Assembly: GCF_031880315.1 (NCBI RefSeq) | Contig: NZ_CP134771.1 | Span: 1,612,001-1,676,000, forward strand | Source: Pseudomonas baltica | GTDB lineage: Bacteria; Pseudomonadota; Gammaproteobacteria; Pseudomonadales; Pseudomonadaceae | DNA: 64,000 nucleotides | Direction of reading: 5' to 3' | Part shown: positions 430-16,429 of the stretch, in pieces | How positions within the stretch are numbered: position 1 is the first letter of the stretch | Layout: every line of letters begins with the position of its first letter | The notes under the pieces: model-generated | The model's input: only the letters and a program-made list of their open reading frames with translations | Database searches by the model: none | What the model was told of the DNA's origin: nothing | Made by a program: the position numbers and the translations under genes

Positions 430-2214
430 TTACAGATAACGTGCAACCTTCCCGACCACCGCTTCAGGCAAGTCCGGAGACATCTGATGCAGCGGATTGG
501 AAGCCATACCGGTCGGTGTGACACGGCTGGTAATTTTCGGGAAGTAGGTCTGCTCTGGGTCGACCTTGACGATAAAGGCACCCGGGCCATCACTCTCGAG
601 CAGCGCGGCAAAGTCAGTCGAGCTCTCGAAGCCCGGCTCTACACGCACTACTGGGATACCGTAGGCCGCGAACAGCGCTGCCCAGTTCGGCAGGCCGAGG
701 CCAGTCTCGATATCGCAACCCACATAGCGGCCACCGAAGTAGCTGCGCTGGGTGGAGCGGATGGACGCGTAACCCGAGTCGTCGAAGATGAAGATCTTCA
801 AATTCAGGCGATTGACGCCCACAGTACCGATTTCCTGCAGGTTCTGGGCGAAACCGCCGTCACCTTCAACCAGGATGACCCGCTGCTCAGGGTTGGCAAA
901 CGCGGCGCCGATGGCTCCGCTAAGGCCGTAACCCATGGACGCCAAACCCTTGTTGGTAACCACGCGCTGCCCAGCCTTTTGGGCGAACACTTGCATCATC
1001 ACGGTAAAAGCCCCACCGCTGCTGCATGGCACGACCACGTCGTCGGCCTTGAGCAAGGTGGACAGGTGCTCGACCAGCTTGAAAGGCGACTGGTAGCCGT
1101 CGTGAGTGACGTTATCTTCGATCAGTGGCACGGATGCTTGCACTTCACGGCAGTAGCCATGCCACTCGCTCCACTGGCCCTCGATCTTGCCAGCCAGGGT
1201 CTTGAGCCAAGGATTGACGTCAGCGCAGATCGGCACATCGACGGTAGGATGGCCCTTGGTCAGCTCGGCAACGTCAACATCGACTTGCACGACTTTGCCG
1301 CCACGGCCAAATTCCTGCCAGTTGAAGCCTGTCTGTTGCAGACCCAGGCGCGTACCCAAAGCCAGCACCACATCTGCCTGTTGCAGCAACAGGTTGGCGT
1401 AACGCTGGCCCCAGGTGTTCGGCCTGCCGAAATAGCACGGGTGATCGGCAGGGATGCGATCCAGGCCGTTCCAGGTAGTGAACAGCGGCAGCGAGTGCTG
1501 TTCGGCGACTGCGGTCAGCGCCGCGGCAGCTTCGCGGCTGACGCCGCCACCGATCAGTACCGCCGGGCGCTGGGCGCTACGCAGTAATGCCAGGACTTCC
1601 TCCAGGGAGTTGTCAGCGGTACGCACGCCAGCAGGTATTGGAAGCGCTTTGCCGGTGATAGCAGCGGCTGGCGTAGTCGGCAGCTCTTCGGCGCTCATCA
1701 GGCGGCCTTGTACGTCCAGCGGCAGCTCGATGAACACCGGGCCTGGGCGACCACGCTCGGTGGCAGCGCAAAGGGCCAGGAAAGCTTCGCGGGACACCTG
1801 AGTGTCCAGGCGCTCTGCGGCCACTGTGATCGGGCGAGCAATGGCAATGCCGTCGATTTCCTGGATGCCGCGCTGGCGCAGCTGGCCATGGCTGAGGTCA
1901 GCGGTCTTGACCTGACCACCAATCACCAGCAACTCACGGCTTTCGAGGAACGCGCCACTCAGGGCGGTCACGATGTTGGTAAGGCCAGGGCCGGCCGTGA
2001 CCAGCGCCAGGGCCTTGCTGCCGTCCGCCGAGGTAGCATTGAAGTATTCGGCGGCGATGCCCGCTGCCACTTCGTGCACCACGGGGATGCAGGTCAGGTT
2101 GTGACTGAGGCTTTCCAGCAGGTGCATGATGTTGCCGCCGGCCACAAAGAAACAGTGCGTATAGCCTGCTTCTGCCAGCCAGCTGCTGATCCAGTCACTG
2201 TACTTTTTCTGCAT
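430..2214 (-). CDS. Thiamine-diphosphate-dependent, acetolactate-synthase-like enzyme (YerE-like)
   Basis: About 594 residues with the three-part layout of the acetolactate synthase / pyruvate decarboxylase superfamily. An N-terminal pyrimidine-binding domain carries the activating Glu in VVHEVAAG, and a C-terminal domain carries GDGGF followed by DDSGY, where NN is usual. It lies in one operon with rfbF, rfbG and rfbH. In yersiniose A synthesis the related enzyme YerE transfers a two-carbon unit from pyruvate onto C4 of CDP-3,6-dideoxy-4-ketohexose, and that is the inferred role here. The ATG at 2214 is chosen because GGGAG lies about 6 bases upstream; a GTG at 2220 is also in frame. The gene overlaps the end of wzt by 20 bases. 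An ordinary housekeeping acetolactate synthase is unlikely in this context. Confidence 0.72.
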   Translation of the reverse strand: MQKKYSDWISSWLAEAGYTHCFFVAGGNIMHLLESLSHNLTCIPVVHEVAAGIAAEYFNATSADGSKALALVTAGPGLTNIVTALSGAFLESRELLVIGGQVKTADLSHGQLRQRGIQEIDGIAIARPITVAAERLDTQVSREAFLALCAATERGRPGPVFIELPLDVQGRLMSAEELPTTPAAAITGKALPIPAGVRTADNSLEEVLALLRSAQRPAVLIGGGVSREAAAALTAVAEQHSLPLFTTWNGLDRIPADHPCYFGRPNTWGQRYANLLLQQADVVLALGTRLGLQQTGFNWQEFGRGGKVVQVDVDVAELTKGHPTVDVPICADVNPWLKTLAGKIEGQWSEWHGYCREVQASVPLIEDNVTHDGYQSPFKLVEHLSTLLKADDVVVPCSSGGAFTVMMQVFAQKAGQRVVTNKGLASMGYGLSGAIGAAFANPEQRVILVEGDGGFAQNLQEIGTVGVNRLNLKIFIFDDSGYASIRSTQRSYFGGRYVGCDIETGLGLPNWAALFAAYGIPVVRVEPGFESSTDFAALLESDGPGAFIVKVDPEQTYFPKITSRVTPTGMASNPLHQMSPDLPEAVVGKVARYL

Positions 2215-2944
2215 GATCACTCCCGGTGAGCTCTTGAACGGATTCTTCGCGAACGATCTTGCCGTGTTCCACGTGCAAGATTCGCGTACAGGTGCGCGCT
2301 AGCAGCGCCGTATCGTGCGAAGCGATCACGACGATCGCCGCACGGTTGATCAAATGGGTGAGTCGCTCCGCGGCCCGCTCCTTGAAATCCTCGTCGCCTA
2401 CGCTCAGCCATTCGTCCATCAGCAGGATATCAGCCCCTACCGAGGTTGAAATCGCGAACGCCAAGCGCATCATCATACCGCTTGAATAGGTACGAACCGG
2501 AAGTTTCAGGTAATCGCCAAGCCCGGAGAAATCGCAGATGTCGTCGATATGCGGCTTGATGCGCTTCGGCGAGATCCCCATGGTGATAGCACGCAGGGTA
2601 ATGTTCTCGATGCCGCTGGAATCGAAATCGAACCCCTGGCCGATATCCAGCAGCGAGGTCACCGAGCCAGCCATATCCAGAATCCCGCTGGCCGGCTCAT
2701 AGACACCACTGAGTGCGCGAAGCAAAGTCGTCTTGCCGGACCCGTTGTGCCCCAGCAGTCCAACGCGCTCGCCATCGTTGATGGTGAAACTTGAACCGTC
2801 GACCGCACGGACTGTAACCCGTGAGTCCGTCCCAGCCAATTTGCCGCCAGTGGCGGCCTTGAGGAACGTCTTGCGCATCGACCGCTGCGCGCCTTGGTAG
2901 ATCGGAAACTCGACGACCAGGTCCTTCGCAATAATATGGGCCAT
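2195..2944 (-). CDS. wzt: ABC transporter ATP-binding protein for polysaccharide export (Wzt, short form)
   Basis: 249-residue ATPase with Walker A GHNGSGKTT, ABC signature YSSGMMMRLAF and Walker B DILLMDEW, in the order seen in Wzt/KpsT/TagH proteins. It would energise export of undecaprenyl-linked glycan with the permease three bases upstream. It ends shortly after the nucleotide-binding domain, so it lacks the C-terminal carbohydrate-binding domain of the roughly 400-residue Wzt proteins that recognise capped chains. It is more like the short Wzt of uncapped O-antigens such as Klebsiella O2a. Its end overlaps the next gene, which suggests coupled translation. Confidence 0.9.
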   Translation of the reverse strand: MAHIIAKDLVVEFPIYQGAQRSMRKTFLKAATGGKLAGTDSRVTVRAVDGSSFTINDGERVGLLGHNGSGKTTLLRALSGVYEPASGILDMAGSVTSLLDIGQGFDFDSSGIENITLRAITMGISPKRIKPHIDDICDFSGLGDYLKLPVRTYSSGMMMRLAFAISTSVGADILLMDEWLSVGDEDFKERAAERLTHLINRAAIVVIASHDTALLARTCTRILHVEHGKIVREESVQELTGSDHAEKVQ

Positions 2945-2947
2945 GGG

Positions 2948-3751
2948 CTACAACCAATAAACGATGCGCGTACGAAACCGCGCAAACAAAAGAAACGAGA
3001 CCGCTGCGGTCCCCAGCAGAATCAAGCCCACATGACCCCAGAGGGCTGGGGTCAGTGGTTGGCCCAGCAGCGGGTTACGTACCAGTTCGAGCAAGTAGTA
3101 GAACGGGTTGATTTCCGCGATCCACATACGAGTGTTAAGGACATCCGCCTTCCACATGATGGGCGTCATGAAGAACACCACCTGCAGAATGTTGGCAACG
3201 ATCTGCGGAATGTCACGGAAGCGCGCGCTGAGCAATCCGACAGCCAGTGCCAGCCAGAACAGAAAGACTCCTATCACCGCCAACCCGACCACTGCCAGCA
3301 ATAGGCCCATTGGATTGAACGGCAGGAACCACAGCACCACCCCGATCAGCACCACAGCGTTGTGAAGAAATACCAGGATGTTGCGCCATACCAGGCGCAA
3401 CACATAGGACGACAGGGGTATCCGCGCCGCCTTGATACCGCCCTCAGCACCGGTGAACACCGAACAGCTTTCGTTGATCACGATGGACATGAAGTTCCAG
3501 GTGATCATGCCTGCGGCCAGGTACGGAATGTAGTCGTGCACGTCCATCTTGAACAACCCGGCGTACATCACCCCCAGGCCGCCGATCAATACGGCAGTAC
3601 TGAGAGTAATCCACAAAGGCCCTAATACCGACCGGCGATAACGCTGGCGAATATCGTGGCTGCCAAGGAATGCCCATGTTTCAGTTGCGGTCAACGCCCC
3701 GACCAGATCTCTCCAGGCCTCGGCCATTCGTATAGAAAAGCGCTTGCTCAA
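2948..3751 (-). CDS. wzm: ABC transporter permease for polysaccharide export (Wzm)
   Basis: 267 residues with about six membrane segments, such as LWITLSTAVLIGGLGVMYAG and LLLAVVGLAVIGVFLFWLAL. The cytoplasmic start contains DIRQRYRRSVLGPLW, typical of ABC-2 polysaccharide permeases (Wzm/KpsM/TagG). With Wzt it moves the finished lipid-linked chain across the inner membrane. The start is taken as a TTG at 3751 with AGGG upstream, 12 bases after the rfbH stop. The first in-frame ATG is at 3727 and has a poorer ribosome-binding site. No Wzx, Wzy or Wzz gene is in the window, which agrees with ABC-dependent export. Confidence 0.9.
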   Translation of the reverse strand: MSKRFSIRMAEAWRDLVGALTATETWAFLGSHDIRQRYRRSVLGPLWITLSTAVLIGGLGVMYAGLFKMDVHDYIPYLAAGMITWNFMSIVINESCSVFTGAEGGIKAARIPLSSYVLRLVWRNILVFLHNAVVLIGVVLWFLPFNPMGLLLAVVGLAVIGVFLFWLALAVGLLSARFRDIPQIVANILQVVFFMTPIMWKADVLNTRMWIAEINPFYYLLELVRNPLLGQPLTPALWGHVGLILLGTAAVSFLLFARFRTRIVYWL

Positions 3752-3763
3752 AGGGTGCCCTAT

Positions 3764-5083
3764 TTATTTTTGATTGATGCCGAAGAAGGTTTCGATGCGA
3801 TCCACGACATAGTCGAGCATCTCAGGGGTCAGGCCTGGCCACACGCCGATCCAGAACGTCTGGTTCATGATCCGGTCAGTGTTTTCCAAGGTGCCCGAAA
3901 CGCGATATTCACGGCCAATCATGTATGGCTGGCGCAGCAGGTTGCCGGCGAACAGCAGGCGCGTGCCGACCTTGTGGTCGTCCAGGTAAGTCAGCAGGTC
4001 GAGACGGGTGAACGCAGTCCCTTCCTTGAGGCTGATCGGGAAACCGAACCAGGAGGGATCGCTGCCTTCGGTAGGCTCTGGCAGCACCAGGAACTCCTGG
4101 CAGCGGGCGAGCTTTTCTTTCAGATAAGCGAAGTTGCGTTTGCGTGCCTCGATGAAGGACGGCAGCTTGTCCATCTGCGCCAGCGCGCAAGCGGCTTGCA
4201 TGTCCGAGATCTTGAGGTTGTAGCCTAGGTGCGAGTAGGTGTACTTGTGGTCGTAACCGTAGGGCAGATCGCCCAGCTGCCAGCAGAAACGCTTTTTGCA
4301 AGTGTTGTCTTCGCCCGGCGGGCAGAAGCACGAGCGGCCCCAGTCACGGATCGATTCAACGGCCAGGCGCAGCTTGGACTTGTTGGTGAACACCGCACCG
4401 CCTTCACCCATGGTGATGTGGTGGGCCGGGTAGAAGCTGAGGGTGCCGATGTCGCCGAAGTTGCCGACCATCTTGCCGTCGTAGGTAGAACCCAGTGCAT
4501 CGCAGCAGTCTTCGACCAGCCAGAGCTTGTACTTGTCGCACAGCTCACGGATCTTGCGCAGATTGAACGGGTTACCCAGAGTGTGGGCCAGCATGATCGC
4601 TTTGGTTTTCGGCGAAATGGCGGCTTCGATCAAATCCGGGTCGATGTTGTAAGTGGTCGGATCGACGTCGACGAACACCGGGATCGCGCCGTTCTGGATG
4701 ATCGGGTTGACGGAGGTCGGGAAGCCCGCAGCCACACCGATCACTTCGTCACCGGGCTTGATGGCACGGGCGCCCAAAGTCGGCGAGGTCAGTGCGGTGA
4801 ACGCCAGCAGGTTGGCCGAAGAGCCCGAGTTGGTAGTCAGTACGTGCTTGACGCCGAGGAACTTGCTCAGGCGTTTTTCGAATTCGGCGTTGAAGCGGCC
4901 GGTGGTCAGCCAGCCATCCAGCGAGGCCTGGATCATCAGGCCGACTTCGGCACCATCGATGACCTTGCCAGACGGCGGAATTGCGGTCACGCCGGGCACG
5001 AATTCGCGGCGCGCGAAAGCGGTCTTGGAGTATTGCTGGGCCAGATCGTCGATCTGTTTTCTGAGGTCGTCTTGGGTGTTCAT
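3764..5083 (-). CDS. rfbH: CDP-4-keto-6-deoxyglucose 3-dehydratase (E1)
   Basis: About 439 residues, the usual size for RfbH/DdhC. It is a PMP-dependent iron-sulfur enzyme that removes the C3 hydroxyl of CDP-4-keto-6-deoxyglucose. The PLP lysine is replaced by His in [12 protein letters not shown], as expected. The [2Fe-2S] motif C-X57-C-X1-C-X7-C is fully preserved: the second Cys of EDCC, then SCFC, then the Cys of DNTC. The ATG at 5083 gives the family's usual N-terminus ([11 protein letters not shown]); a GTG at 5110 overlapping the rfbG stop would add nine residues. The E3 reductase that normally re-reduces this enzyme is not encoded nearby. Confidence 0.95.
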
Positions 5084-5106
5084 CAGGTAATCCGCGTTCG
5101 TTGTGG

Positions 5107-6183
5107 TCACGCTTGCGAGAAGCGTGAAATTTGATCAATACAAACTTGTCGCATGTCGCTGCCGGCCAGGAATTCCCGGTGCCATCCAACGACTTCATCC
5201 AACGCTCGGGCGAGGGACCAGCGTGGTGTCCAGGACAGGTCGGCACGGGCTTTGGAGCAGTCGAGCTTCAGGTAATGGGCTTCGTGGGGCGCCGAGGCAT
5301 TGGCCTCGATGCGGAACTGCGAGCCATCGGCCCAGCACTGAGTCATGCGCTCGGCAATCCAGCTGACCGGTTGCGCGTCGGCATCCGCAGGGCCGAAGTT
5401 CCAGCCCTCGGCGAATTGTGCCCCATCTTCATACAAGCGCTGGGCTAGCACCAAGTAACCAGACAGCGGCTCAAGCACGTGCTGCCACGGGCGAATCGCC
5501 CCTGGGTTGCGGATGATAGCGACTTCCTTGCGCTCAAAGGCGCCCAGCAAGTCAGGGATCAGACGGTCGGCCGCCCAATCACCACCACCGATCACATTAC
5601 CCGCACGGCCACTGCCCAACGCGAGGCCGTGCTCGGCATGACGCGCGGGGTTGAAATAGGAGTTCCGATAGGCTGAGGTGACCAACTCCGTGCAGCCCTT
5701 ACTGGCGCTATAAGGATCGTAGCCGCCCATGGCTTCGTTCTCGCGATAGCCCCAGGCCCACTCGCGGTTCTCGTAGCACTTGTCGGAGCTGACAACCACG
5801 CAGGCCTTGATGCCACCGCATGAGCGCATGGCTTCGAGCAGGTGCACGGTGCCCATGACGTTGGTGGCGAAGGTTTCTACCGGCGCGTCATAGGAGTAGC
5901 GAACCAGCGGCTGCGCGGCCAGGTGCAGGACGATGTCCGGCTTGGCCTGCGCCATTGCCGCGGTCAACGCTGCCTGGTCGCGGATGTCGCCGATAAGGGA
6001 AGTCATGCCCTCCCCCACTGCAGCGACCTCGAACAGGCTCGGTGTGGTCGACGGAGCCAGAGCGAAACCGGTGACAGTCGCGCCCATTTCCTGCAGCCAC
6101 AGCGCCAGCCAGCCGCCTTTGAAGCCCGTGTGACCGGTCAGGAAGACCTTTTTGCCCTGCCAGAATCCGCGATCTATCACCAT
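5107..6183 (-). CDS. rfbG: CDP-glucose 4,6-dehydratase
   Basis: About 358 residues, an extended short-chain dehydrogenase fold. The NAD-binding motif is [14 protein letters not shown] near residue 12, and the YDPYSASKG segment supplies the catalytic Tyr-X3-Lys. It converts CDP-glucose to CDP-4-keto-6-deoxyglucose, the second step of CDP-3,6-dideoxyhexose synthesis. The ATG at 6183 is chosen because GGAAAG lies just upstream and the resulting start ([12 protein letters not shown]) matches the family; a longer frame to 6213 is open but lacks support. The start overlaps the rfbF stop by seven bases, and the end touches rfbH. Confidence 0.95.
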
Positions 6184-6947
6184 ACTTTCCACGGCGCGAC
6201 CTTGCGTTCCCACAGGTCTTCCAGCTGTTGTTTCTCGCGCAGGGTGTCCATCGGCTGCCAGAAGCCGCCGTGCTCATAGGCCAACAGGTTGCCGGTGCTG
6301 GCGAGCGCTTCGAGTGGCTCGCGCTCCCAGATGGTTTCGTCTTCTGCGATGAGGTCGATCACTTCGGGCTTGAGCACGAAGTAGCCACCGTTGATCCAGG
6401 AGTCGTCACCGTGGGGCTTCTCGCGGAAGCTCTCGACGAAATGGTTGTTGATGTTCAGGGCACCAAAGCGGCCTGGCGGCTGGGTGGCCGTGACCGTCGC
6501 CTTTTTACCGTGCGCCTTGTGGAAGGCCACCAACTTGCCGATATCGACATCGGCCACGCCGTCACCGTACGTGAAGCAGAAGTCTTCACCTGGCTCAAGG
6601 TACTCGCGCACACGGCGCAGGCGGCCGCCGGTCTGAGAGTCGGCACCGGTATCCACCAGCGTCACACGCCAAGGCTCGGCGTTGTTCTGGTGGACTTCCA
6701 TCTGGTTCTTGGCCATGTCGAAGGTTACGTCCGACATGTGCAGGAAGTAGTTGGCGAAGTACTCTTTGATCACGTAACCCTTGTAGCCCAGGCAAATCAC
6801 GAAATCGTTCACGCCGTAGTGGGAGTAGGTTTTCATGATGTGCCAGAGGATCGGTCGGCCACCTATTTCAACCATAGGTTTCGGGCGAGTGCTCGTCTCT
6901 TCACTCAGACGACTACCCAGCCCGCCTGCCAAAATTACTGCTTTCAT
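6177..6947 (-). CDS. rfbF: Glucose-1-phosphate cytidylyltransferase
   Basis: 256 residues. The N-terminus MKAVILAGGLGSRL carries the nucleotidyltransferase signature, followed by TRPKPMVEIGGRPILWHIM and the acidic FTYGDGVADVD. It makes CDP-glucose from CTP and glucose-1-phosphate, the entry step for rfbG and rfbH downstream. The ATG at 6947 is supported by an AGGAG about seven bases upstream; the frame is open to 6965. The first gene of the contiguous rfbF-rfbG-rfbH set. Confidence 0.95.
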   Translation of the reverse strand: MKAVILAGGLGSRLSEETSTRPKPMVEIGGRPILWHIMKTYSHYGVNDFVICLGYKGYVIKEYFANYFLHMSDVTFDMAKNQMEVHQNNAEPWRVTLVDTGADSQTGGRLRRVREYLEPGEDFCFTYGDGVADVDIGKLVAFHKAHGKKATVTATQPPGRFGALNINNHFVESFREKPHGDDSWINGGYFVLKPEVIDLIAEDETIWEREPLEALASTGNLLAYEHGGFWQPMDTLREKQQLEDLWERKVAPWKVW

Positions 6948-7020
6948 CGTTTGCTCCTGCGTCATCTCTAATAAGTTTCAACGGGGTTGGATCACGAAGC
7001 AACCCCAGCTAAGGAACGGA

Positions 7021-8658
7021 TCATCTAGCCAACAGCCGCTTGCCTAAACGTACGCATTTCCCTATGGGATAGGTAAACAGGTAGGTAAATTTACGCACCC
7101 ACAATGTGGCTTGGCGATAAATCTGGACGGACCCGGAGTACTCATGCGCTACGCGGTGCATCACGCTGATGTGCTGCTCACCGAGATGATGCAAATCGGC
7201 CACCGCCCGGGTGGCAAGGTGGTGCATATCAACCATGGCCCGGTTGCCGGCTGTGACAGCTTGCCGATGCACTTCGACTGAACTCGTATATTCGCTTAGA
7301 AAGCGCTGCATCAGATCCACTGGCCGTCTTCGCGACGCACGGGCCAAGCCCATTTTGGCCTGATCAGCGGCCTTGGCCACCAAGGAATCCAGATTGTCAG
7401 CTAGCAGCAGCGCCGGCGCGTGTTCTTCAAGATCAATTACAGAAAGAGCGGCGATCACCCCACCATCGATCTGCGGCTGCACTGCGACCCAATGGCACGC
7501 CATACGGTAAATGTGATAACCGTACCGATCCCCTTGCCAATTATTGCGGTAAACATCAGCATCATGAAGCCGATGAATACGATCAAAAGTCGCTTGCAGC
7601 TCCTCCAACTCTTCCCGTGAGCGCTGCCCGGTTGCTATTTGGTGCAGCTGTAAAATAGGCTCGAACAAGTCATAGGTGAAGAGATCACAGGACACGAAGA
7701 AATTTCGGATCTCCGCCAACACCTCGGCGTCGACTTGAAACCTTTCCTCCGAGAAGTGGATAGACGCCACAACCTGCGTATAAACCTTGTGAATACATTC
7801 ATTCAAGAGCTTAAACCGTGATCCATCGCGGCGACTTTCGAAAATCCTCGGTAAACTTCCGCCTGTGATGACACCCCTATCAACCAACCACTTGAACTGC
7901 AAGGCCATGCCAACGCCCCAGAAATGGTGATCTGCGACATTTAGGCGCTCGGCTACCTTTTTGAAGTGCGCGACCTGTTTAAGGCCGTCAGAATTCCGGT
8001 AATACACAAGTGGCATATTGACAATGCGACTCCTACGATGCGCGAAGCAAGCTAGGAACCAGCAAACATGGGAATACAACGGCTGAATAGCTTGAGCTTC
8101 CCAAGCGATTTCAATATCAGCATATTCACGCCGAAAAATCACATTAGAAATACCTGCCAGCATAAACCCGAAACCAGCTGTTTCGATCAGTTGGTCTGCA
8201 GATACATCCATATAAGCGTTGCGCATGGAGACCATCTTCGGGCACAACACCTGGCCGTCGTCGTCAATGACCGGCGAATTGAAGACATAAAGATCCGCAG
8301 CATTCTCCCTGATCATGGAAATCAGGTATAGAATAGTACCTACGGTAGGTATATCATCGTCACCGTGATACCAAACAAACTCCCCAGCGCACAACTCCAG
8401 AGAGTGAAACATATTCAGCTCCGCAGTCTCGAGAAACTCTTTGCGATTGTAGAGCTTGATGCCTCCCCCGATGAGAGGCTCAATGAGTTCGCGGGTGCTG
8501 TCATTGGAGCAATTATTGACAACCACTATCTCGATGTCGTCGGTCAGCGGCATAAGGTTCTGCTTCAGAAACAACACTAAAGCATGCACACGCTTACCAC
8601 GATTATAAGTGGGAATACAGATTGTAAGCGCTGGCTTTCTGGGCAATACCATTTCCAT
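7021..8658 (-). CDS. Family-2 glycosyltransferase with a long helical C-terminal extension
   Basis: 545 residues. The GT-A domain is at about residues 9-250: ALTICIPTYNRG at the start, VVVNNCSND, and the metal-binding HGDDD at about residue 100. The acceptor and linkage cannot be told from sequence. The last 100 residues are unusual. A motif EYTSSVEVHRQA (about 456-467) returns as EYSGSVQIYRQA (about 506-517), with eleven-residue repeats built on MHHL / LHHL / MHRV between, which suggests an amphipathic helix. Base composition is visibly richer in A+T than the housekeeping genes, consistent with acquired O-antigen DNA. The start at 8658 lacks a strong ribosome-binding site; an ATG two codons later is equally possible. 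Confidence 0.82.
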   Translation of the reverse strand: MEMVLPRKPALTICIPTYNRGKRVHALVLFLKQNLMPLTDDIEIVVVNNCSNDSTRELIEPLIGGGIKLYNRKEFLETAELNMFHSLELCAGEFVWYHGDDDIPTVGTILYLISMIRENAADLYVFNSPVIDDDGQVLCPKMVSMRNAYMDVSADQLIETAGFGFMLAGISNVIFRREYADIEIAWEAQAIQPLYSHVCWFLACFAHRRSRIVNMPLVYYRNSDGLKQVAHFKKVAERLNVADHHFWGVGMALQFKWLVDRGVITGGSLPRIFESRRDGSRFKLLNECIHKVYTQVVASIHFSEERFQVDAEVLAEIRNFFVSCDLFTYDLFEPILQLHQIATGQRSREELEELQATFDRIHRLHDADVYRNNWQGDRYGYHIYRMACHWVAVQPQIDGGVIAALSVIDLEEHAPALLLADNLDSLVAKAADQAKMGLARASRRRPVDLMQRFLSEYTSSVEVHRQAVTAGNRAMVDMHHLATRAVADLHHLGEQHISVMHRVAHEYSGSVQIYRQATLWVRKFTYLFTYPIGKCVRLGKRLLAR

Positions 8659-8679
8659 ATTTAGAATCCGACCTTATTA

Positions 8680-9765
8680 TCAAGCATCGCTCAGTCGAGT
8701 ACGACCAGTTTTAACCCGAGCCACTATCAAACGGGTCGTATAACCAATCCCTCGCTCACGAATCATCAGCACAATGGTTTTGATGATACCAATGTAGCGC
8801 GACGGCTTGGTCATTTTCTCGACATAGGTGTCCACCATCTGAACATTATAAGGCGTGACATCAGCCAATGCCTGGGTAGAGACAACAAAGTCGGCCAGCG
8901 CTTGCTCTGCCCGCAGAAAAAGACTCAAGTAGCGCTCGCGGGCGAGTGCTACAGTGTTTTTCGCCCGTACAAAGCCTTCAGGATCATCGGCGCCCCATAC
9001 ATAGCCTTCCGTACCGTGCTCGTCCTTACCGATCAAATCGGTAAAGAACTCATTCGGCAAAAATACTACCGGGCAACCACACAACATCGCTTCAATAGCC
9101 AGTGCCGAATTCTCATAGCAGTAGAACCGCTCGCACTGCTGAAACAGATCACGAATCTGCTCTGGCGTCTGCTCGTCATCGCGATCCCGAACTATTTCGG
9201 CCAAACCCTCGGTGATTGGGAACGTCTTGCCACCGTGGTAATTTTTATATTTACCTGCGTAGAAGCATGCGCCCTTGCGCTGAGTACCCGGAGCAGGCGG
9301 TACGAAGAAGTTTGGATCCGAAGCAGGAATAAAGATCGTCTGCTTGGAAGTCGGCACTGTCGCCGCAATCGCCCCGCTGTAGGAAATGCAATATTCCGAT
9401 ACCGGAAATTGGGAATCGCCACCCAACAATCCCGCATAGTTCAGCACGTACCTGACGATGAACGGAGCGTTCATCGGGTCGCCCTTGATGCTCTCGGGGT
9501 AAATGGTGATCGGCGTCAGCCCTTGAGCACGGTGGTAATCCATGGTGCGCTTGGTCAACAGCGGGGTGTTAAGGGCCGGATGCGTCGACAGGTAAGGCGG
9601 AAAGTGCGGATGAATGATCAGGAAAGCCTGCTCACCCATCCGATTCAAGGCATGACAAAGAAAATGCAGCGCCTTGATCCCGGCTGAAGTCCTGACATAT
9701 CGAGCAGCAACGATGTAGTAAGGGTTACGCCGTACAGGCATGAATAGAGATCGAGTTTCGGTCAT
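8680..9765 (-). CDS. Probable GT-B-type glycosyltransferase, family not certain
   Basis: 361 residues, no signal peptide, no membrane segments. The C-terminal half has FYCYENSALAIEAMLCGCPVVFLP, the E-X7-E / G-X-P-V pattern by which GT-B (GT4-like) transferases bind nucleotide sugars. An N-terminal ALHFLCHALNRMG segment fits the acceptor domain. It starts with an ATGA overlap on the preceding epimerase gene, so it is translated as part of the sugar operon. The family cannot be named with confidence and the substrate is unknown. Confidence 0.65.
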   Translation of the reverse strand: MTETRSLFMPVRRNPYYIVAARYVRTSAGIKALHFLCHALNRMGEQAFLIIHPHFPPYLSTHPALNTPLLTKRTMDYHRAQGLTPITIYPESIKGDPMNAPFIVRYVLNYAGLLGGDSQFPVSEYCISYSGAIAATVPTSKQTIFIPASDPNFFVPPAPGTQRKGACFYAGKYKNYHGGKTFPITEGLAEIVRDRDDEQTPEQIRDLFQQCERFYCYENSALAIEAMLCGCPVVFLPNEFFTDLIGKDEHGTEGYVWGADDPEGFVRAKNTVALARERYLSLFLRAEQALADFVVSTQALADVTPYNVQMVDTYVEKMTKPSRYIGIIKTIVLMIRERGIGYTTRLIVARVKTGRTRLSDA

Positions 9766-10712
9766 GACCTGCCACTTTGCAGCAAAGCGTTCATGTAGTC
9801 GGCGGTCAGCTTGATTTGCTGATCCAGCCCGAGCGGAGAAATTTCGAACGCGCGTTCGAATTCACGAATGGCATTGGCATCGCCAACGTAGCGGTCTGCC
9901 GCAGTGCCGCTCATCGGCGCACGCTCGATGACCAGGTGCGGCGCAAGCAGTTGCTGGCAGCGCTGTGCCAACTCGCCCACTTCGACCGCTTCGGTGCCAG
10001 CCGTATCGAATGCGTGGAACGCTGCCCCCTGATCGCGCCCCGCCAGCATCAGCCGGCAGCACAATTCGATCAGGTCCGTGACACTGTAGTAGGAGCGGAT
10101 CACGGGATGAGTCGCGCGTACGCTGATTGGCTCGTTGCGCAGACACGACGCGATGATCGAGGCTAGCGCATACAGATTGTGCTTGTTGATGTAAGGCCCA
10201 CTGACGTTGAATACCCGAGGGCTCACGACCGGAAAGCCATACTGCTTGCCCATGGCTTCGAAAGCGCGCTCGTCATCGAGCTTGCAGCGACCGTAGATCG
10301 CCCCATCGCTTTGATTGGTTTCATCAAGCCCCGCATAAGCCGCGCCACTGGACGGCACAAACAACCCGGCAATCGCATTGGCGTCCACAAACTGCGCCAG
10401 AGCGTCGCGAATACTGCGGTTGAGGAGTATGTAGTCCTCAAGCGTATTGGCGCCTACGCGATCCTTGGTCTGGAAGGCATAGTGGAACACCAGGGCTGGC
10501 CGCGATGTGCGCAGCGCCGGCAAGGACGACAGTGCCTGAACCTGTACGGCTGAGCCATCACGTAGCATCAGGACCCGAGCACTTGATGCGAAGGCATGCA
10601 CCTGGGGCCACTGCGCCGGAGGTAGCTGGCGGAACAAGTATTCCAGGGTGGCCTGACCCAACCAACCGCTGGCCCCGATGACGACGAAATCGACCTGGTC
10701 AAAACCTTCCAT
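9762..10712 (-). CDS. NAD(P)-dependent epimerase/dehydratase/reductase of the extended SDR type
   Basis: 316 residues with a nucleotide-binding start VIGASGWLGQATLEYL and a catalytic set SSGAAYAG then YGRCK (Ser, Tyr-X3-Lys). The FNVSGPYI segment is typical of nucleotide-sugar epimerases and reductases. It could be the 4-keto reductase that finishes the CDP-3,6-dideoxy sugar (RfbJ-, RfbS- or YerF-like), or act on the product of the cyclase. The sequence does not decide between these. It overlaps the cyclase stop as TGATG, so the two are probably translated together. Confidence 0.8.
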   Translation of the reverse strand: MEGFDQVDFVVIGASGWLGQATLEYLFRQLPPAQWPQVHAFASSARVLMLRDGSAVQVQALSSLPALRTSRPALVFHYAFQTKDRVGANTLEDYILLNRSIRDALAQFVDANAIAGLFVPSSGAAYAGLDETNQSDGAIYGRCKLDDERAFEAMGKQYGFPVVSPRVFNVSGPYINKHNLYALASIIASCLRNEPISVRATHPVIRSYYSVTDLIELCCRLMLAGRDQGAAFHAFDTAGTEAVEVGELAQRCQQLLAPHLVIERAPMSGTAADRYVGDANAIREFERAFEISPLGLDQQIKLTADYMNALLQSGRS

Positions 10713-11803
10713 CAGGCACCGCCGTTCACAGCGAGGTCCGCGCCTTGGGCGAAGGCGTTACGGATCAGCGCCTGAATCAATGGAGAACGTTCCACCGACA
10801 GGCGCTGCAGATCACCATCACCGACCGGTACAATGACGCGGTAGTGGCTTTGGGAGTGCTTTTTGTCGCTACCGAAATGCTTGAGCAGCACCTCCGCGTC
10901 GATACCTACCAGCGGCGCCAAGGTGTGGCGCATGGGTTGCAGCAATGCCTGCACGTGAGCGACCAAGCGGCCAGCACGCTCCAGACCTGCGGGAGTCAGA
11001 ATCGAGGCCACCTCTGCATACCGGTAGGCCATCAGGATGCCAACGCCGACGGCGATACCATGAGGGATCGCAAAATGCGTGGCCGACTCGACGGCATGGC
11101 CGAAGGTGTGGCCGAAATTCAGCAACAAGCGCTCGGCTTGGTCGAACTCGTCGATTTCTATAAACCACTTTTTGGTTGTCAGGCTTTGCTCGATGATGGC
11201 AAAAGCGGTTTCGGTTTTCAGTGGTGCGGTCGGTTGCAGAGCGAGGTATGCATCGAATGCTTCGCCGCCCCGTGCGTAGCAGATCTTCACCGACTCCATC
11301 AGCCCGCTGGTTTGTTGCTCGGCGCTGAGGCTATGCACGAAAGCGAGGTCGATCAGAATACTGGCCGGCGGGTGGAAATTACCTACGAGGTTCTTGAGCG
11401 CGCCGACGTTGATCGACGATTTGCCGCCGATGCAGGAGTCGACCATGCCCAGCAGAGTGGTTGGGCAATAATGCCAACGCAGGCCTCGCATATAGATCGA
11501 TGCCACGAAGGTAGCGATGTCCTGGATGATGCCACCGCCTACCGCCACAATCTCGGTTTCCCGAGTGGCGCCATGGCCCTTGAGGGCTTCGATGATCGGG
11601 GCGATACGCTCCAGCGATTTGTTTTCTTCGGTCGCATCCACGGCAATGATTGGATCGGTGACGAACGCCACCTGAGCCAGCAAATTGGTGTCCACGATAA
11701 AAATTCGGTGAGCTTGACTGGCCACCACGTTCTTGACCAGCCCCTCGCCCAACGACACACGGTACACGCCCGTCGAGCTGTTTATATCAAACGATGCGTG
11801 CAT
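10712..11803 (-). CDS. Sugar-phosphate cyclase, dehydroquinate-synthase-like
   Basis: 363 residues aligned by eye with 3-dehydroquinate synthase: GGGIIQDIATFVASIYMRG, PTTLLGMVDSCIGGKSSIN, then KNLVGNFHPP. The metal-ligand positions look complete: the Glu of GLMESVK, the His of NFGHTFGHAVE, and the His of PHGIAVGVG. The NAD site and catalytic lysines are therefore kept. The housekeeping aroB normally lies with aroK elsewhere, and this copy sits among nucleotide-sugar genes. The family also includes 2-epi-5-epi-valiolone and 2-deoxy-scyllo-inosose synthases. Inferred role: making a carbocyclic or chain-modified sugar precursor; the product cannot be predicted. It overlaps the SDR upstream by 17 bases. 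Confidence 0.82.
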   Translation of the reverse strand: MHASFDINSSTGVYRVSLGEGLVKNVVASQAHRIFIVDTNLLAQVAFVTDPIIAVDATEENKSLERIAPIIEALKGHGATRETEIVAVGGGIIQDIATFVASIYMRGLRWHYCPTTLLGMVDSCIGGKSSINVGALKNLVGNFHPPASILIDLAFVHSLSAEQQTSGLMESVKICYARGGEAFDAYLALQPTAPLKTETAFAIIEQSLTTKKWFIEIDEFDQAERLLLNFGHTFGHAVESATHFAIPHGIAVGVGILMAYRYAEVASILTPAGLERAGRLVAHVQALLQPMRHTLAPLVGIDAEVLLKHFGSDKKHSQSHYRVIVPVGDGDLQRLSVERSPLIQALIRNAFAQGADLAVNGGA

Positions 11804-12512
11804 GTGTGAAACCCTTGTCGACGGTCAGGAATTGGCCAGTAATGGCACTGTGTGCTGGCGAACAGCAAAACTCCACCACCGCGGCCACATCGGTCACACC
11901 CGCCAGCCTGGAGCCCGGTGTCGCGGCTTCCAGGCGGCCGATCTGCTCGGCCGAGAGGTTGGCACGGGTCATCGGGGTATCCAGCGCGCCAGGCAGTACC
12001 GCGTTGATCACGTGGCCTTCTGCGGCCAGATCGAGGGATACCGAACGCACCAACCCCTGCAAGGCAGCTTTGGTGACGCAGTAGGAGAGTTTGTTTTGCC
12101 GGGCAATGTTTTGCCAGATAGAGCTGATGACGCACAACCGTGCACCACCCTTGGCCAGCGCGCCAGCGGTCAGCAAAGCGTTCAGCGACACCAGCACCAG
12201 GCCTACGTTGGCCTCGTACATCCGCATGTGCCGCTGGTAGTCGAGGTCAGTGATGTTATCGGTGCAGTTGTCACCCTGCGCCCAGACCACGGCGTCGAAC
12301 TGGCCCAGCGCGGCCGGCACTGGCTCTTCGGCAAGAGGGTTCCACACCAGGGTGGTCACCTGTGGATGCGCCGAAGCCGTCGAAGTTACCTGCCGTACGA
12401 TCGCAGTGACATCCCAGTGGCGGGTGGCGAACCACTCCACCAGCCCGGAACCAATGGCGCCCGAGGCGCCAAAGATCGCTATGCGCGGTCGCGCAGTCGT
12501 TGCCACGACCAT
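11787..12512 (-). CDS. Short-chain dehydrogenase/reductase
   Basis: 241 residues, classical SDR. The cofactor motif is GASGAIGSG at about residue 15, and the active-site Tyr-X3-Lys lies in LSYCVTKAALQG with the Ser in VISSIW. A ...PGALDTPM segment follows. It lies between the aldolase (gap of three bases) and the cyclase (overlap of 17 bases), so the three are co-expressed and probably act in sequence. The substrate is unknown; an oxidation or reduction of the aldol or cyclised product is a guess from position only. Confidence 0.88.
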   Translation of the reverse strand: MVVATTARPRIAIFGASGAIGSGLVEWFATRHWDVTAIVRQVTSTASAHPQVTTLVWNPLAEEPVPAALGQFDAVVWAQGDNCTDNITDLDYQRHMRMYEANVGLVLVSLNALLTAGALAKGGARLCVISSIWQNIARQNKLSYCVTKAALQGLVRSVSLDLAAEGHVINAVLPGALDTPMTRANLSAEQIGRLEAATPGSRLAGVTDVAAVVEFCCSPAHSAITGQFLTVDKGFTHARIV

Positions 12513-12515
12513 GCC

Positions 12516-13316
12516 TTATTGGCCGCCCAGCAGTTTCCAGCGGGCATCGAGCATGGCGATGCGCTTATCATCTTCCTTCTCGATCAGACCGTAGTACTCG
12601 CGTTTGTTTTCCAGCCACAGCAGTTCGAAATGCACTGCGTTGAGCAGACCTTTTTCGATGTCGCGAGTGCGCACCGAGTCAGCTGCGTAAACGACCTTAC
12701 GGGTTTCGAAGCGAGCCAAATGATTGGCTTCGAGCTTCTTCAATTCTTCGATCGCATCGCTGGAAACACCGCCGCCAACGACCAGTTCCAGGCCGGCAGC
12801 CTTGGCTGCAGTACCGGTCTTGAGCGCGTACTCGGTGACTTTCGGATGGTTGATGTCATCGCGGCTGTAGCCGTTGGACAGGGAGAAATCGACACGACCG
12901 AACACCACGCCGTCCAGACCATCAGAGACGCTGGCAGCTTCTATCAGCGCATCCAGGTTGTTGAACCCGGTAATGGTCTCGAGGTTGAACAGGAACTTGG
13001 TGTCCTCTTGCTCTTCCTTGGTGTATATCTTGTTCTTCGCTTCGATGAACTTTTTCACCGCGTAAGCGGATTCGATCATCGGCGCGATGATGTACTCGAC
13101 GCCGATCTGCTTGCTTTCGAGCAGGTCACGAATGGCTTCGCAGCCGCCGATCTTCAGGGCGATGCCCAAGTCGGCACGCCGGGCAAGCTCGATCAGACGC
13201 AGCAGTTCGTCTACACGAGTGCCTTCGGCTTCGAACTCGGCCTTGACGGCCAGGTAGCCGTACTCCTCTTTACCGCGTTTGAGAAGCTCCAGCATCTTGC
13301 GTTCACGACTGTTCAT
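12516..13316 (-). CDS. HpcH/HpaI (citrate-lyase-beta-like) aldolase family protein
   Basis: 266 residues in the TIM-barrel pattern of the HpcH/HpaI family: [40 protein letters not shown] with a metal-type Glu, and [15 protein letters not shown] with the second acidic ligand. Members join or split pyruvate- or acetyl-type units and an aldehyde. It is the first gene of the compact sugar operon and has a clear AAGGAG ribosome-binding site. With the cyclase and SDR it points to a carbon-carbon bond-forming step in an unusual sugar. The acceptor is unknown. Confidence 0.78.
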
Positions 13317-13913: not shown

Positions 13914-16109
13914 TCACCCAGGCTCTGATAAATCGCGCAGCCGCTGTGTCTCCTCCACGAGGTGGTCGAGCAACGCCTCAAATACCGGGATGTCAACAGC
14001 TCGGATACTGCGATTCTGCTCTCGCAAATTGTCCAGCCAGGCTAGGGTCGCCGAGAAATCCTTGGCGGGTCCTTGCAAAGTGCGAGCGGGAACCAGCGTG
14101 ATTCCACAGTGCAAGGCAAGCTGCTCTTCGGTGAATGTAAAACCATATCGTTCCAGAATAGCTCTTTTCAGACAATTAGTTTCTTGATCGATCTCCGCGA
14201 GATGCAAGCTACCATCACTCTCCCAATGAATCCTCGTCGCTGACAGCTCTTCCTGCACATTGCCGTAGCGCAATCTATCGATATTAAGCGCAGTGACCCA
14301 ATAGTCATTGGCAAACGAATAAGAATTATGAAAGCGCAAGTCAACCGCGAGTGCTTTTTCCCGATCAAAGCATAGCGTGGGCGCGTGCATAACCCACCAG
14401 AACAACAACCCTGCCCTGATCTGCTCGTGGCTTTGCGGTTTCCCATGGATATGATGCCCCTCGTTCTCGGTGGCATGGCTGCGAACGTGCCAAAACGACC
14501 GATACATGGCGCTATTGACGCCTAGCTCCGGGTCCTCGAGGAAGGCATCAATCTGCCGTTCAAGTCGGTGCGTATAACTGACATCATCTGAATGTTGTAT
14601 CGCAATCCAGCGTGATTGGGTGGTACGAAAAAAATCGTCGACGCGCAACGTAGGATGCACACCAGGGTAAATTCGAATCGAAACTCGTGGATCCCTAACG
14701 GCGTAGGCTTTAGCGATATCCACCGTGGCATCGGTTGAGCCGCCATCGAGTACCGCCAGCTCCAAATCTTGCCAAGACTGTTCTAAAACACTTTCGATTG
14801 CCTCGGCGACATACCTTGCGGAGTTGAACGTTGGCAGGATCACTACCACTGCAGCTGGGCCATCCGTCAATGTGGGCTCATGCAAAATGTAGGGAACCGA
14901 TTCAGGCTCTTCAGATTTTTCCGGAACTTCGACTGCCGTGGCCGTCGGGACCGATGAAGCGAAGATATTCTTTATGGCTCTTAACGGGGCCGTGATGCGC
15001 CATGAAGTGGATTTCTGTAATCGTTCGATGTGATTCTGGGCAGTCCACAGTTCTGCGCCGGCCAACGCCGCATCTTTCTTGCAGACTGACAGATCGCCCT
15101 TAAGCCCGAGCAACTGATGCTCCAGCCCCTTCGCCCTTTTTGTTGACTCGCGCTTCGCTTCCGCCATGGCAAATTCTGCGTGCCGTAATGCCCCGTCCGT
15201 AGCGCGCTGCATTCGCTGTACAGACTCGACCAATAATTTTTGCTTTTGTTGAACCTCACCAGCACGCTCCAGACCGGCAACGACTGAATTGGGCGTTTTA
15301 AACATGGCGAGCAAGCGATACTCGTCCTGATTTGCCACGCGAAGCTTTTCCAACGTTTCGCGACGCAGATCAGGCTTGCTACTGGCAGCATGGGTCTTGA
15401 AAAAATCAACCCCAGGATCCAACGGCACGCCGAGTAAAAAACTGATAGAGGAGATCGCCTGTTTCAACTGCGGATAGATACCGATGAAGGCAAATCGCTG
15501 ATGGACGGCTCCCAACAACTCAAGCCTCGCCTGATCATCTATGACTCCGCTAAAGTATTCAGGCACCTCGCCTATCGCAGGACTTATCAGTAGAGACCAG
15601 AAAGCGTTGAAATAAAAATTCTCATAATACGGGCAGCGAGATGCCTCAAGTACCAGTTCATCGAGATCTGCATCTGGCTGTATGAAGAGCGCATAGAGCG
15701 ACTCGCCAAACACCTTTCTATACCAGGAAATTTCAGCTTGCGAACGCAACGAGGCTGCGGGCAGATCGGCGCATTCGCCCATGAGTTTACGAACATGGAA
15801 AACATCCGAGAGGAAACGCTCCACGGGGTCACGCAAGAGCGTCACGTAATTACGGGCCTCCGACGGCAGCGCGGCCTCGATGTTTTGACGGGTACGGTGA
15901 TGCAAAAAAGGCGATTCATTCCCCCATTTCAGACTTGGCGCTTCTAGCTGAGCCTTGCGCACTGCTTGTTGCGCAAGAAAAGGCGTATCGAAGTCACTCA
16001 GCGATTGCTCATAGAGATCAATTACCCGGACTGCGTGCTTGGTCGCCAGAGGGGCGAGGACATTCCAGACGGCCGATCCACCGGTACGGCCCATATTAAA
16101 AAAAATCAT
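13914..16109 (-). CDS. Sulfotransferase-glycosyltransferase fusion protein
   Basis: 731 residues in three parts. Residues 1 to about 260 resemble sulfotransferases: the phosphosulfate-binding start MGRTGGSAVW near residue 6 and the 3'-phosphate motif LLRDPVERFLS near 91-101. Residues about 270-365 are a charged coiled coil ending in SWRITAPLR (369-377). Residues about 419-700 are a family-2 glycosyltransferase: VVVILPTFNSARYV, then VLDGGSTD and HSDDVS. A single protein could therefore add and sulfate a sugar in the glycan, using PAPS. The usual Lys of the P-loop-like motif is Arg here, so activity is uncertain. A+T is higher than in flanking housekeeping genes. It is the last gene of its group. 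Confidence 0.75.
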   Translation of the reverse strand: MIFFNMGRTGGSAVWNVLAPLATKHAVRVIDLYEQSLSDFDTPFLAQQAVRKAQLEAPSLKWGNESPFLHHRTRQNIEAALPSEARNYVTLLRDPVERFLSDVFHVRKLMGECADLPAASLRSQAEISWYRKVFGESLYALFIQPDADLDELVLEASRCPYYENFYFNAFWSLLISPAIGEVPEYFSGVIDDQARLELLGAVHQRFAFIGIYPQLKQAISSISFLLGVPLDPGVDFFKTHAASSKPDLRRETLEKLRVANQDEYRLLAMFKTPNSVVAGLERAGEVQQKQKLLVESVQRMQRATDGALRHAEFAMAEAKRESTKRAKGLEHQLLGLKGDLSVCKKDAALAGAELWTAQNHIERLQKSTSWRITAPLRAIKNIFASSVPTATAVEVPEKSEEPESVPYILHEPTLTDGPAAVVVILPTFNSARYVAEAIESVLEQSWQDLELAVLDGGSTDATVDIAKAYAVRDPRVSIRIYPGVHPTLRVDDFFRTTQSRWIAIQHSDDVSYTHRLERQIDAFLEDPELGVNSAMYRSFWHVRSHATENEGHHIHGKPQSHEQIRAGLLFWWVMHAPTLCFDREKALAVDLRFHNSYSFANDYWVTALNIDRLRYGNVQEELSATRIHWESDGSLHLAEIDQETNCLKRAILERYGFTFTEEQLALHCGITLVPARTLQGPAKDFSATLAWLDNLREQNRSIRAVDIPVFEALLDHLVEETQRLRDLSEPG

Positions 16110-16429
16110 CCCGCCCGCTTGCTCCCCTATTGATCACCGAATGCCATTACATCAGCCCCTCAAGGCAGCTTATATCAACATTTGTATCGTCGCGGCAGTC
16201 GACAACAAAAGTCAGGGCTCCGTTCCCGTCTCATCCAAATTGACGGCGTCCGTCAGCGCCAATTCCAATTCTGGAAGCATGCAGTGGAGCTTTTCGCAAT
16301 AAAACGCCCAAAAACGAAAGCTTACAAATCAGGATGATACCTACAATCGTCCTAGGACCTCCCCGTCAAGCCAGCAGAAAACCGCTGATCTTCACCACAT
16401 TCGCTAAATAAAATCACACCCGCCTAGAT
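16110..16429. other. 320-base gap between two same-strand genes
   Basis: It lies between the pyruvyl-transferase-like gene and the sulfotransferase fusion, both read leftward. No gene, repeat or convincing terminator was seen. It is long for a within-operon spacing in this locus, so an internal promoter is possible. Confidence 0.5.

Follow-up and report, generated by a model that had tools for sequence, protein, structure and literature searches.

A four-gene cassette in an O-antigen operon of Pseudomonas baltica most likely makes the side chain of the branched sugar caryophyllose

We analyzed a 64,000-nucleotide stretch of the Pseudomonas baltica genome (NCBI RefSeq assembly GCF_031880315.1, contig NZ_CP134771.1, positions 1,612,001 to 1,676,000; hereafter the window), focusing on four genes at 9762..13316. 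An earlier sequence-only reading had described them as overlapping or nearly touching genes for an HpcH/HpaI aldolase, a short-chain dehydrogenase (SDR), a dehydroquinate-synthase-like cyclase, and an epimerase in an O-antigen operon. A check of the open reading frames (ORFs) together with a reading of the DNA recovered all four intact on the minus strand with the same coordinates, and each protein scored above the Pfam cut-off of the family proposed for it. The cassette comprises the genes for a divergent HpcH/HpaI-family aldolase (12516..13316; 266 aa; PF03328, 42.7 bits against a cut-off of 25), an SDR (11787..12512; 241 aa; PF13561 adh_short_C2, 87.8 bits against 27), an AroB-related, 3-dehydroquinate synthase (DHQS)-like enzyme (10712..11803; 363 aa; DHQ_synthase, 125.3 bits against 24.2, and DHQS_C, 88.7 bits against 27.6), and an epimerase-family NAD(P) enzyme (9762..10712; 316 aa; PF01370, 64.2 bits against 20.9). 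The intergenic gaps are 3, -17, and -1 bases along the cassette and -4 bases to the downstream gene; the cassette genes are genuine and intact and show translational coupling.

The cassette constitutes the first four of the 12 genes in an operon spanning 430-13316, all on the minus strand, in which the largest gap is 55 bases. The fifth gene (8680..9765) encodes a presumed glycosyltransferase that is conserved as a neighbor of the cassette and gave no Pfam or NCBIfam match at an E-value of 0.001. It is followed by the genes for a family 2 glycosyltransferase (7021..8658; PF00535, 56.4 bits), the glucose-1-phosphate cytidylyltransferase RfbF (6177..6965; TIGR02623, 466 bits against a cut-off of 300), the CDP-glucose 4,6-dehydratase RfbG (5107..6213; TIGR02622, 499 bits against 278), the 3-dehydrase RfbH (3764..5110; NF011936, 743 bits against 423), the permease (2948..3751; PF01061 ABC2_membrane, 56.8 bits) and ATPase (2195..2944; PF00005 ABC_tran, 69.4 bits) of an ABC exporter, and a thiamine diphosphate (ThDP)-dependent carboligase of the acetolactate synthase type (430..2220; three TPP-enzyme Pfam domains). 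RfbF, RfbG, and RfbH together make CDP-4-keto-3,6-dideoxyglucose. The ThDP protein matched 54 models and fell short of the cut-off in every one of the 25 listed, which are of the acetolactate synthase type. From its operon partners (RfbF/G/H) and its relatives (53% identity to IlvB1_3 of Mycobacterium marinum M over 599 columns), we predict it to be a YerE-like carboligase, a type of enzyme that takes CDP-4-keto-3,6-dideoxyglucose as the acceptor (PMC12247030; here and below, papers are cited for the parts covered). A promoter scan 5' of the operon found 0 sites, and a terminator scan found one terminator-like site, close to the shuffle mean.

Among the named relatives of the cyclase, the first from outside Pseudomonas is that of Trinickia caryophylli (71% identity). 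We read the T. caryophylli locus in a genome whose cyclase matches the named protein at 100% identity across 387 residues. All of the 12 window genes are present there in an identical order with 48-82% identity: aldolase 79%, SDR 67%, cyclase 71%, epimerase 55%, the ORF corresponding to 8680..9765 69%, family 2 glycosyltransferase 48%, RfbF 82%, RfbG 74%, RfbH 82%, permease 73% (at the same position), ATPase 79%, and ThDP enzyme 74%. The genes least similar between the two operons are thus those of the family 2 glycosyltransferase and the epimerase. A second genome, taken as that of T. acidisoli, carries the same twelve genes in the same order. The O-chains of T. caryophylli lipopolysaccharide are homopolymers of caryophyllose (major) and caryose (minor) (PMC9026286), and the window agrees in gene synteny with a caryophyllan O-antigen operon, genes alone being compared. 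The cyclase is sparsely distributed, being found in 2 of 298 Pseudomonas genomes (E-value of 1e-60 or lower) and 2 of 299 genomes of the phylum (1e-80 or lower), the P. baltica genome included in both counts, and in 5 of 398 genomes from the Pararobbsia family, a set that takes in Pararobbsia itself (T. caryophylli query; 1e-60 or lower). A plasmid search with the ThDP protein gave zero matches at 1e-60. Two further loci, L008 and L009 (locus numbers are ours), have the cassette followed directly by RfbF/G/H without polymer genes. In L009, which belongs to a Pseudomonas sp., the ThDP gene comes next after RfbF/G/H, and at the corresponding place after RfbH L008 has a second, different epimerase-family gene (15308-16330; 38% identity to that of the window).

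Altogether, we propose, with a probability of roughly 0.7, that the window operon specifies a caryophyllan-type O-antigen, i.e., an ABC-exported homopolymer of caryophyllose or a close stereoisomer, made by a five-step route. The product of the four-gene cassette is most likely not a ring-shaped sugar but the side chain of caryophyllose, which is a rare branched sugar with 12 carbons. Eight genes would build the CDP sugar, one step for each, with RfbF, RfbG, and RfbH supplying CDP-4-keto-3,6-dideoxyglucose. The aldolase would first join pyruvate and D-erythrose 4-phosphate into 3-deoxy-D-ribo-heptulosonate 7-phosphate, the C4 epimer of 3-deoxy-D-arabino-heptulosonate 7-phosphate (DAHP). In the second step, the AroB-like enzyme would perform the first half of DHQS chemistry, in which C5 is oxidized in an NAD-dependent manner, the C7 phosphate is eliminated, and C5 is reduced. 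The resultant enol would then be protonated with neither an attack on C2 nor ring closure, giving a C6 ketone and a C7 methyl group. The AroB-like enzyme thus probably strips the phosphate to leave a methyl end. The SDR is proposed to reduce the C6 ketone, yielding 3,7-dideoxy-D-ribo-heptulosonate. The YerE-like ThDP enzyme would decarboxylate this C7 keto acid and couple the remaining C6 acyl unit to the CDP sugar at its C4 ketone, and the epimerase-family protein is proposed to reduce the new side-chain ketone as a YerF-like reductase. The sequences establish gene content, order, conservation, and co-occurrence. While we infer the first, second, third, and fifth steps, their order, and the exact product, the YerE-type coupling itself has been demonstrated, and ErwE favors hydroxylated donors longer than C4, MMAR_2332 of M. 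marinum being described as similar (PMC12247030). In yersiniose A and erwiniose synthesis by YerE and ErwE (PMC12247030), compared here by description, CDP-4-keto-3,6-dideoxyglucose likewise serves as the acceptor of a ThDP carboligase. The yersiniose pathway uses pyruvate directly, whereas the window adds a cassette for a C7 donor.

The stereochemistry of the sugar is consistent with this route. Caryophyllose of M. marinum is named 3,6-dideoxy-4-C-(D-altro-1,3,4,5-tetrahydroxyhexyl)-D-xylo-hexopyranose (PMC5706390). In both this name and that published for T. caryophylli, we derived the three outer hydroxyls as D-ribo (R,R,R in Fischer terms), which fits erythrose 4-phosphate plus a new center epimeric to that of DAHP. 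By our derivation, a C6 acyl unit with the D-ribo pattern arises from 3,7-dideoxy-D-ribo-hept-2-ulosonate by loss of CO2.

To follow the gene set across genomes, contigs were scanned for relatives of the cyclase, and 72 loci were obtained. We regarded 64 of them as core loci (cyclase identity of at least 39% to the window; the line was set once the identities had shown a gap from 36% to 39%) and eight as outgroup loci. SDR was found in all of the 64 core loci, the aldolase in 51, a NeuB-family protein in four, and either of the latter two in 55. A ThDP gene was counted in 52 (40 of the window type and 12 of a second type), and a ThDP gene plus at least one of the RfbF/G/H genes in 45. The figure of 52 is a slight undercount under the 400-bit rule applied, as the L014 gene (70% identity) is cut by the end of the locus. 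Among the 36 core loci with full flanks, SDR was present in 36, the aldolase in 33, ThDP in 32, and ThDP plus rfb genes in 31. None of SDR, aldolase, NeuB, and ThDP genes was detected in the eight outgroup loci. The aldolase-SDR-cyclase set, part of the four-gene group that the sequence-only reading had suggested searching for, recurs in dozens of loci in at least four phyla, and the grouping is not due to chance. One such locus lies on a Prochlorococcus single-cell contig (L063:741-9668) with RfbF/G/H, SDR, AroB-like, ThDP, and aldolase genes and a distant epimerase gene. On a megaplasmid of Novosphingobium humi (L085:12037-14807), RfbF, RfbG, and the aldolase gene stand together, and no cyclase gene was detected beside them.

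RfbH was found in 30 of the 40 loci with the first ThDP type vs. four of the 12 with the second type, and the latter may often build on a sugar keeping the 3-hydroxyl. Seven loci (L010, L012, L015, L016, L018, L022, and L032) carry the cassette with a distant, second ThDP gene (34-36% identity to that of the window) and RfbF/RfbG, and no RfbH was detected in them, predicting related branched sugars that retain the 3-hydroxyl. No aldolase was found in L013, L036, L053, and L070. Each of these four clusters encodes a NeuB-family protein (PF03102, 126-135 bits), the gene of which is located directly upstream of the SDR gene in three of them, and the L013 protein did not reach the cut-off for either N-acetylneuraminate or pseudaminic acid synthases. 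NeuB-family enzymes also make 3-deoxy-2-ulosonic acids. That unrelated enzymes of two families occupy the same place points to a shared product class. As L018 and L022 are of Bradyrhizobium, a link to bradyrhizose was considered and dropped: no photosynthetic bradyrhizobium was named among the best 120 matches, most of which bear no species label, and the covered text of the paper on the 11-gene bradyrhizose cluster names no such gene. Rhodopseudomonas palustris, the O-antigen sugar of which is said to be caryophyllose-like, was likewise not named among the same 120 matches.

Caryophyllose also occurs in M. marinum, and in the genus Mycobacterium the ThDP enzyme was found in 13 of 396 genomes (E-value of 1e-160 or lower). 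We read 12 of the 13 loci. In six of them (L111, L112, L113, L114, L115, and L122), aldolase, SDR, AroB-like, ThDP, and RfbF/G/H genes occur together, and L118 has this set except for the aldolase. In L122 of M. stomatepiae, the ThDP gene lies in two overlapping pieces in different frames (9214-10988), which reflects either an error in sequencing or a disrupted gene. L116, L117, and L120 possess the aldolase gene, and neither SDR nor AroB-like gene was found in the stretch read. In L117, a haloacid dehalogenase (HAD)-family hydrolase gene adjoins the aldolase gene (11082-12919 for the two together), and a hydrolase in place of the AroB-like enzyme and SDR fits a simple hydrolytic removal of the phosphate, leaving a CH2OH end. 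M. gastri, considered for its gastriose as a check on this hydrolase variant, was not recognized in the genomes searched. In L119 of M. shinjukuense (7861-9003) and L121 (7887-8915), a NeuB-family protein replaces the aldolase, and no AroB-like gene was found in the stretch read.

L111 was taken as M. marinum, as its ThDP protein and IlvB1_3 of M. marinum M share 98.7% identity. The window aldolase is 59% identical to that of M. marinum. The ThDP gene of L111 is flanked on one side by a family 2 glycosyltransferase gene, matching MMAR_2333, and further on there is a part of a polyketide synthase gene (with KR, zinc-dehydrogenase, and PP-binding domains), matching MMAR_2340; these two are listed as a glycosyltransferase and a polyketide synthase, respectively (PMC4403928 Table 1). 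By gene count, MMAR_2332 would correspond to the ThDP enzyme, MMAR_2331 to the aldolase, MMAR_2330 to the SDR, and MMAR_2329 to the AroB-like protein. The deletion of MMAR_2331 yields LOS-II*, a lipooligosaccharide (LOS) without caryophyllose, and the deletions of MMAR_2332 and MMAR_2333 likewise accumulate the precursor without caryophyllose, complemented strains being mentioned (PMC5706390). The M. marinum LOS pathway thus resembles the window in combining a ThDP carboligase, aldolase, AroB-like enzyme, SDR, and RfbF/G/H. It differs in that the product is an actinobacterial glycolipid instead of an O-antigen and in the order and strands of the genes, and no relative of the ABC exporter of the window was detected in the M. 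marinum stretch read.

The AroB-like protein retains 15 of the 16 positions compared with the AroB of the same genome and five other AroB sequences, the sole change being E to D at D221. The compared positions are those that we take to form the metal, NAD, phosphate, and carboxylate sites. The mycobacterial AroB-like proteins keep E at the position matching D221. This conserved catalytic set, as well as the fact that most of the named matches are called 3-dehydroquinate synthase or a family protein thereof, would suit a DHQS-like gene that feeds the shikimate pathway and is merely carried along with the O-antigen genes. We consider such a role highly improbable. The 6.63-Mb single-contig genome has its own aroB at C1:3988348, which encodes a normal, genuine AroB (TIGR01357, 388 bits against a cut-off of 305), the cassette protein scored 247 bits for the same model, below the cut-off, and its gene is linked to the SDR, aldolase, and ThDP genes. 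In the phylogeny, 38 cassette sequences (the window, two Trinickia, and 35 of the 64 core loci) and six mycobacterial sequences were separated from six AroB, one deoxy-inosose synthase (DOIS), and eight outgroup sequences with support of 99/97. The tree was rooted at the midpoint and contained no valiolone synthase (EEVS); DOIS fell across the split from the cassette proteins, and DOIS and one AroB sequence were on long branches. Owing to the separate aroB in the genome and the split in the tree, we regard the AroB-like protein as distinct from AroB. The clade stands apart from both DHQS and DOIS, two of the three groups that the sequence-only reading had named for a tree, and the protein shares its fold and catalytic residues with AroB while differing in clade and gene partners.

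At the family level, the best NCBIfam match of the AroB-like protein was TIGR04425 (AroB-related putative sugar phosphate phospholyase, cyclizing) with 293 bits against a cut-off of 400. The same family was the top match of the M. marinum protein and three other cassette cyclases scanned. With 276-311 bits, all of these proteins are non-members by the curators' rule, and we propose a non-cyclizing role instead. The AlphaFold model (predicted local distance difference test score, pLDDT, of 93.3) was closest to solved DHQS folds, with DOIS appearing from rank 16 on. The PDB chain 4p53, which is titled Cyclase and which we take to be EEVS, matched at 102.6 bits. R225 and N229, presumably corresponding to R264 and N268 in Aspergillus nidulans numbering, are conserved in all six AroB rows and in the cassette proteins, one row of which is undetermined at R225. 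The single DOIS compared (of Sodalis, so annotated) has A and E at these positions. The residue comparison took in six of the eight outgroup rows, one DOIS, and no EEVS. The retention of R225/N229 in the cassette proteins and their loss in the one DOIS argue for a DAHP-like keto-acid substrate over an inosose-type substrate.

These results bear on the suggestion of the sequence-only reading that the cassette makes an unusual cyclic or chain-extended monosaccharide for the O-antigen. The higher-carbon half of this suggestion is supported by the operon content and the synteny. The carbocyclic half, in which ring closure by the AroB-like enzyme would lead to caryose or a new carbocyclic sugar apart from the CDP-branched sugar, appears unlikely to us, even though the enzyme belongs to a cyclase family, has an intact active site, and caryose does occur in T. 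caryophylli (PMC9026286). The flanking RfbF/G/H and ThDP genes, which the sequence-only reading did not mention, decide against it, as ThDP plus at least one RfbF/G/H gene stands alongside in the 45 core loci counted above. The chemistry points in the same direction: DHQS-type closure leaves a ring CH2, whereas every ring carbon of the caryose carbocycle bears oxygen by our reading of its name, and a product of DHQS type, having ceased to be an alpha-keto acid, would be unusable as a ThDP donor. Besides RfbF, no nucleotidyltransferase or kinase was recognized among the operon families. The 12-gene order is shared with T. caryophylli, a producer of caryophyllose. Finally, M. marinum has relatives of the gene set, yet there is no carbocycle among the LOS sugars described for it (PMC5706390).

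The aldolase passed the PF03328 cut-off and matched the barrel fold of the family. In its AlphaFold model (pLDDT 92.9), the top three solved folds were HpcH/HpaI-type aldolases with template-modeling scores of about 0.6, and pyruvate kinases were likewise among the top-ranked folds. The protein carries a divergent KIGGCEA motif, and E113 and D143 are invariant in 35 of 35 alignment rows including the window. A match to an Ilyobacter aldolase (36%) was set aside because of its catabolic setting. The order of the first steps could also be reversed, such that a sugar phosphate is turned by the AroB-like enzyme and SDR into a 4-deoxytetrose-like aldehyde, to which the aldolase then adds pyruvate. 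This order would give the same final keto acid, and the mycobacterial loci L116, L117, and L120, with the aldolase gene and without an AroB-like gene, suggest that the aldolase can work alone. On the other hand, the retained R225 and N229, in the role we presume for them, suggest a carboxylate substrate, i.e., an action after the aldol step, and we regard the reversed order as improbable.

Several observations weigh against the caryophyllose route as proposed. The aldolase scored only 19-25 bits against the models of characterized aldolases, and two catalytic residues of HpaI, a His and an Arg that we take to be H45 and R70, are apparently not kept: judged by eye, there is no His in the other divergent motif stretch of the protein, and Lys55 is near the place of the Arg. 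The full DHQS active site in the AroB-like protein is compatible with ring closure, and as T. caryophylli makes caryose besides caryophyllose, synteny alone cannot separate the two sugars. The gene set is also incomplete in part of the core loci. Neither aldolase nor NeuB is found in nine of the 64 (L041, L055, and L056 having full flanks), and 12 of the 64 have no counted ThDP gene (L014, L019, L041, and L056 having full flanks). L019 has aldolase, SDR, and cyclase genes with ThDP and rfb genes absent within reach, L056 is devoid of both aldolase and ThDP genes, and L055 has a ThDP gene but neither aldolase nor NeuB. In L031 and L041 of Sphingomonadaceae, the setting of the SDR and cyclase genes is unrelated and includes no aldolase, ThDP, or rfb gene. 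No ThDP gene was found in L008 after RfbH up to the contig end. Likewise, L118 of Mycobacterium encodes AroB-like and SDR proteins, but no aldolase or NeuB within reach. The SDR and AroB-like proteins of M. marinum are distant (35% over 116 aa and 42% over 206 aa, respectively), no relative of the epimerase-family protein was detected in 20 kb around its locus, and MMAR_2331 is tied to either synthesis or transfer of caryophyllose, the paper leaving the two undecided (PMC5706390). Within the operon at 430-13316, to which the search was confined, no E3 reductase for RfbH was recognized. We would presume that partner to be a ferredoxin-type, RfbI/DdhD-like protein.

Some neighboring genes deserve mention. 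5' of the operon, the window encodes two further proteins. In the first (13914-16109), residues 419-547 form a family 2 glycosyltransferase domain, and the part N-terminal to it has no Pfam match and is sulfotransferase-like by eye. The second is a polysaccharide pyruvyl transferase (16430-17860), and in Pseudomonas viridiflava (L007) a 57% relative of it likewise lies on the upstream side of the cassette. L003 bears a single ORF (1460-2656), close to the O-antigen locus of the same genome, that is adenylylsulfate-kinase-like and then methyltransferase-like by eye. The SDR/AroB-like pairs of L031 (2928-4722) and L041 (9271-11065) adjoin genes for a luciferase-like oxidoreductase and an alcohol dehydrogenase, also by eye.

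In the parts covered, PMC12247030 links no aldolase or AroB-like gene to the donor of the ThDP enzyme, although an earlier mention is still possible, and the same review does not state the origin of the long hydroxylated keto-acid donors. According to a study cited there, YerE-like candidates number more than 200, the vast majority of which have no known sugar structure. Among the titles retrieved for branched-chain sugars or O-antigens with dehydroquinate synthase and aldolase, none was on such a cassette, and the papers listed for the TIGR04425 family were unrelated. What would be new is an AroB-family enzyme turned into a non-cyclizing terminal deoxygenase, which frees the enol as a methyl ketone and feeds ThDP-dependent branching; with the exchanges for NeuB or a hydrolase, it would be part of a modular, multi-phylum system that determines how long the branch is and which group ends it. 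We give this wider proposal even odds.

YerE-like enzymes are of interest as catalysts for tertiary alcohols, and the cassette offers a source of long hydroxylated keto-acid donors that can be tested enzyme by enzyme. The analysis connects the operon in Pseudomonas with caryophyllose as made by T. caryophylli and M. marinum. The sugar would be predictable from the gene content, namely from whether aldolase or NeuB is encoded, whether AroB-like plus SDR genes accompany it, and whether RfbH is present. If the route is true, the cassette would represent a new reaction outcome for the dehydroquinate synthase family.

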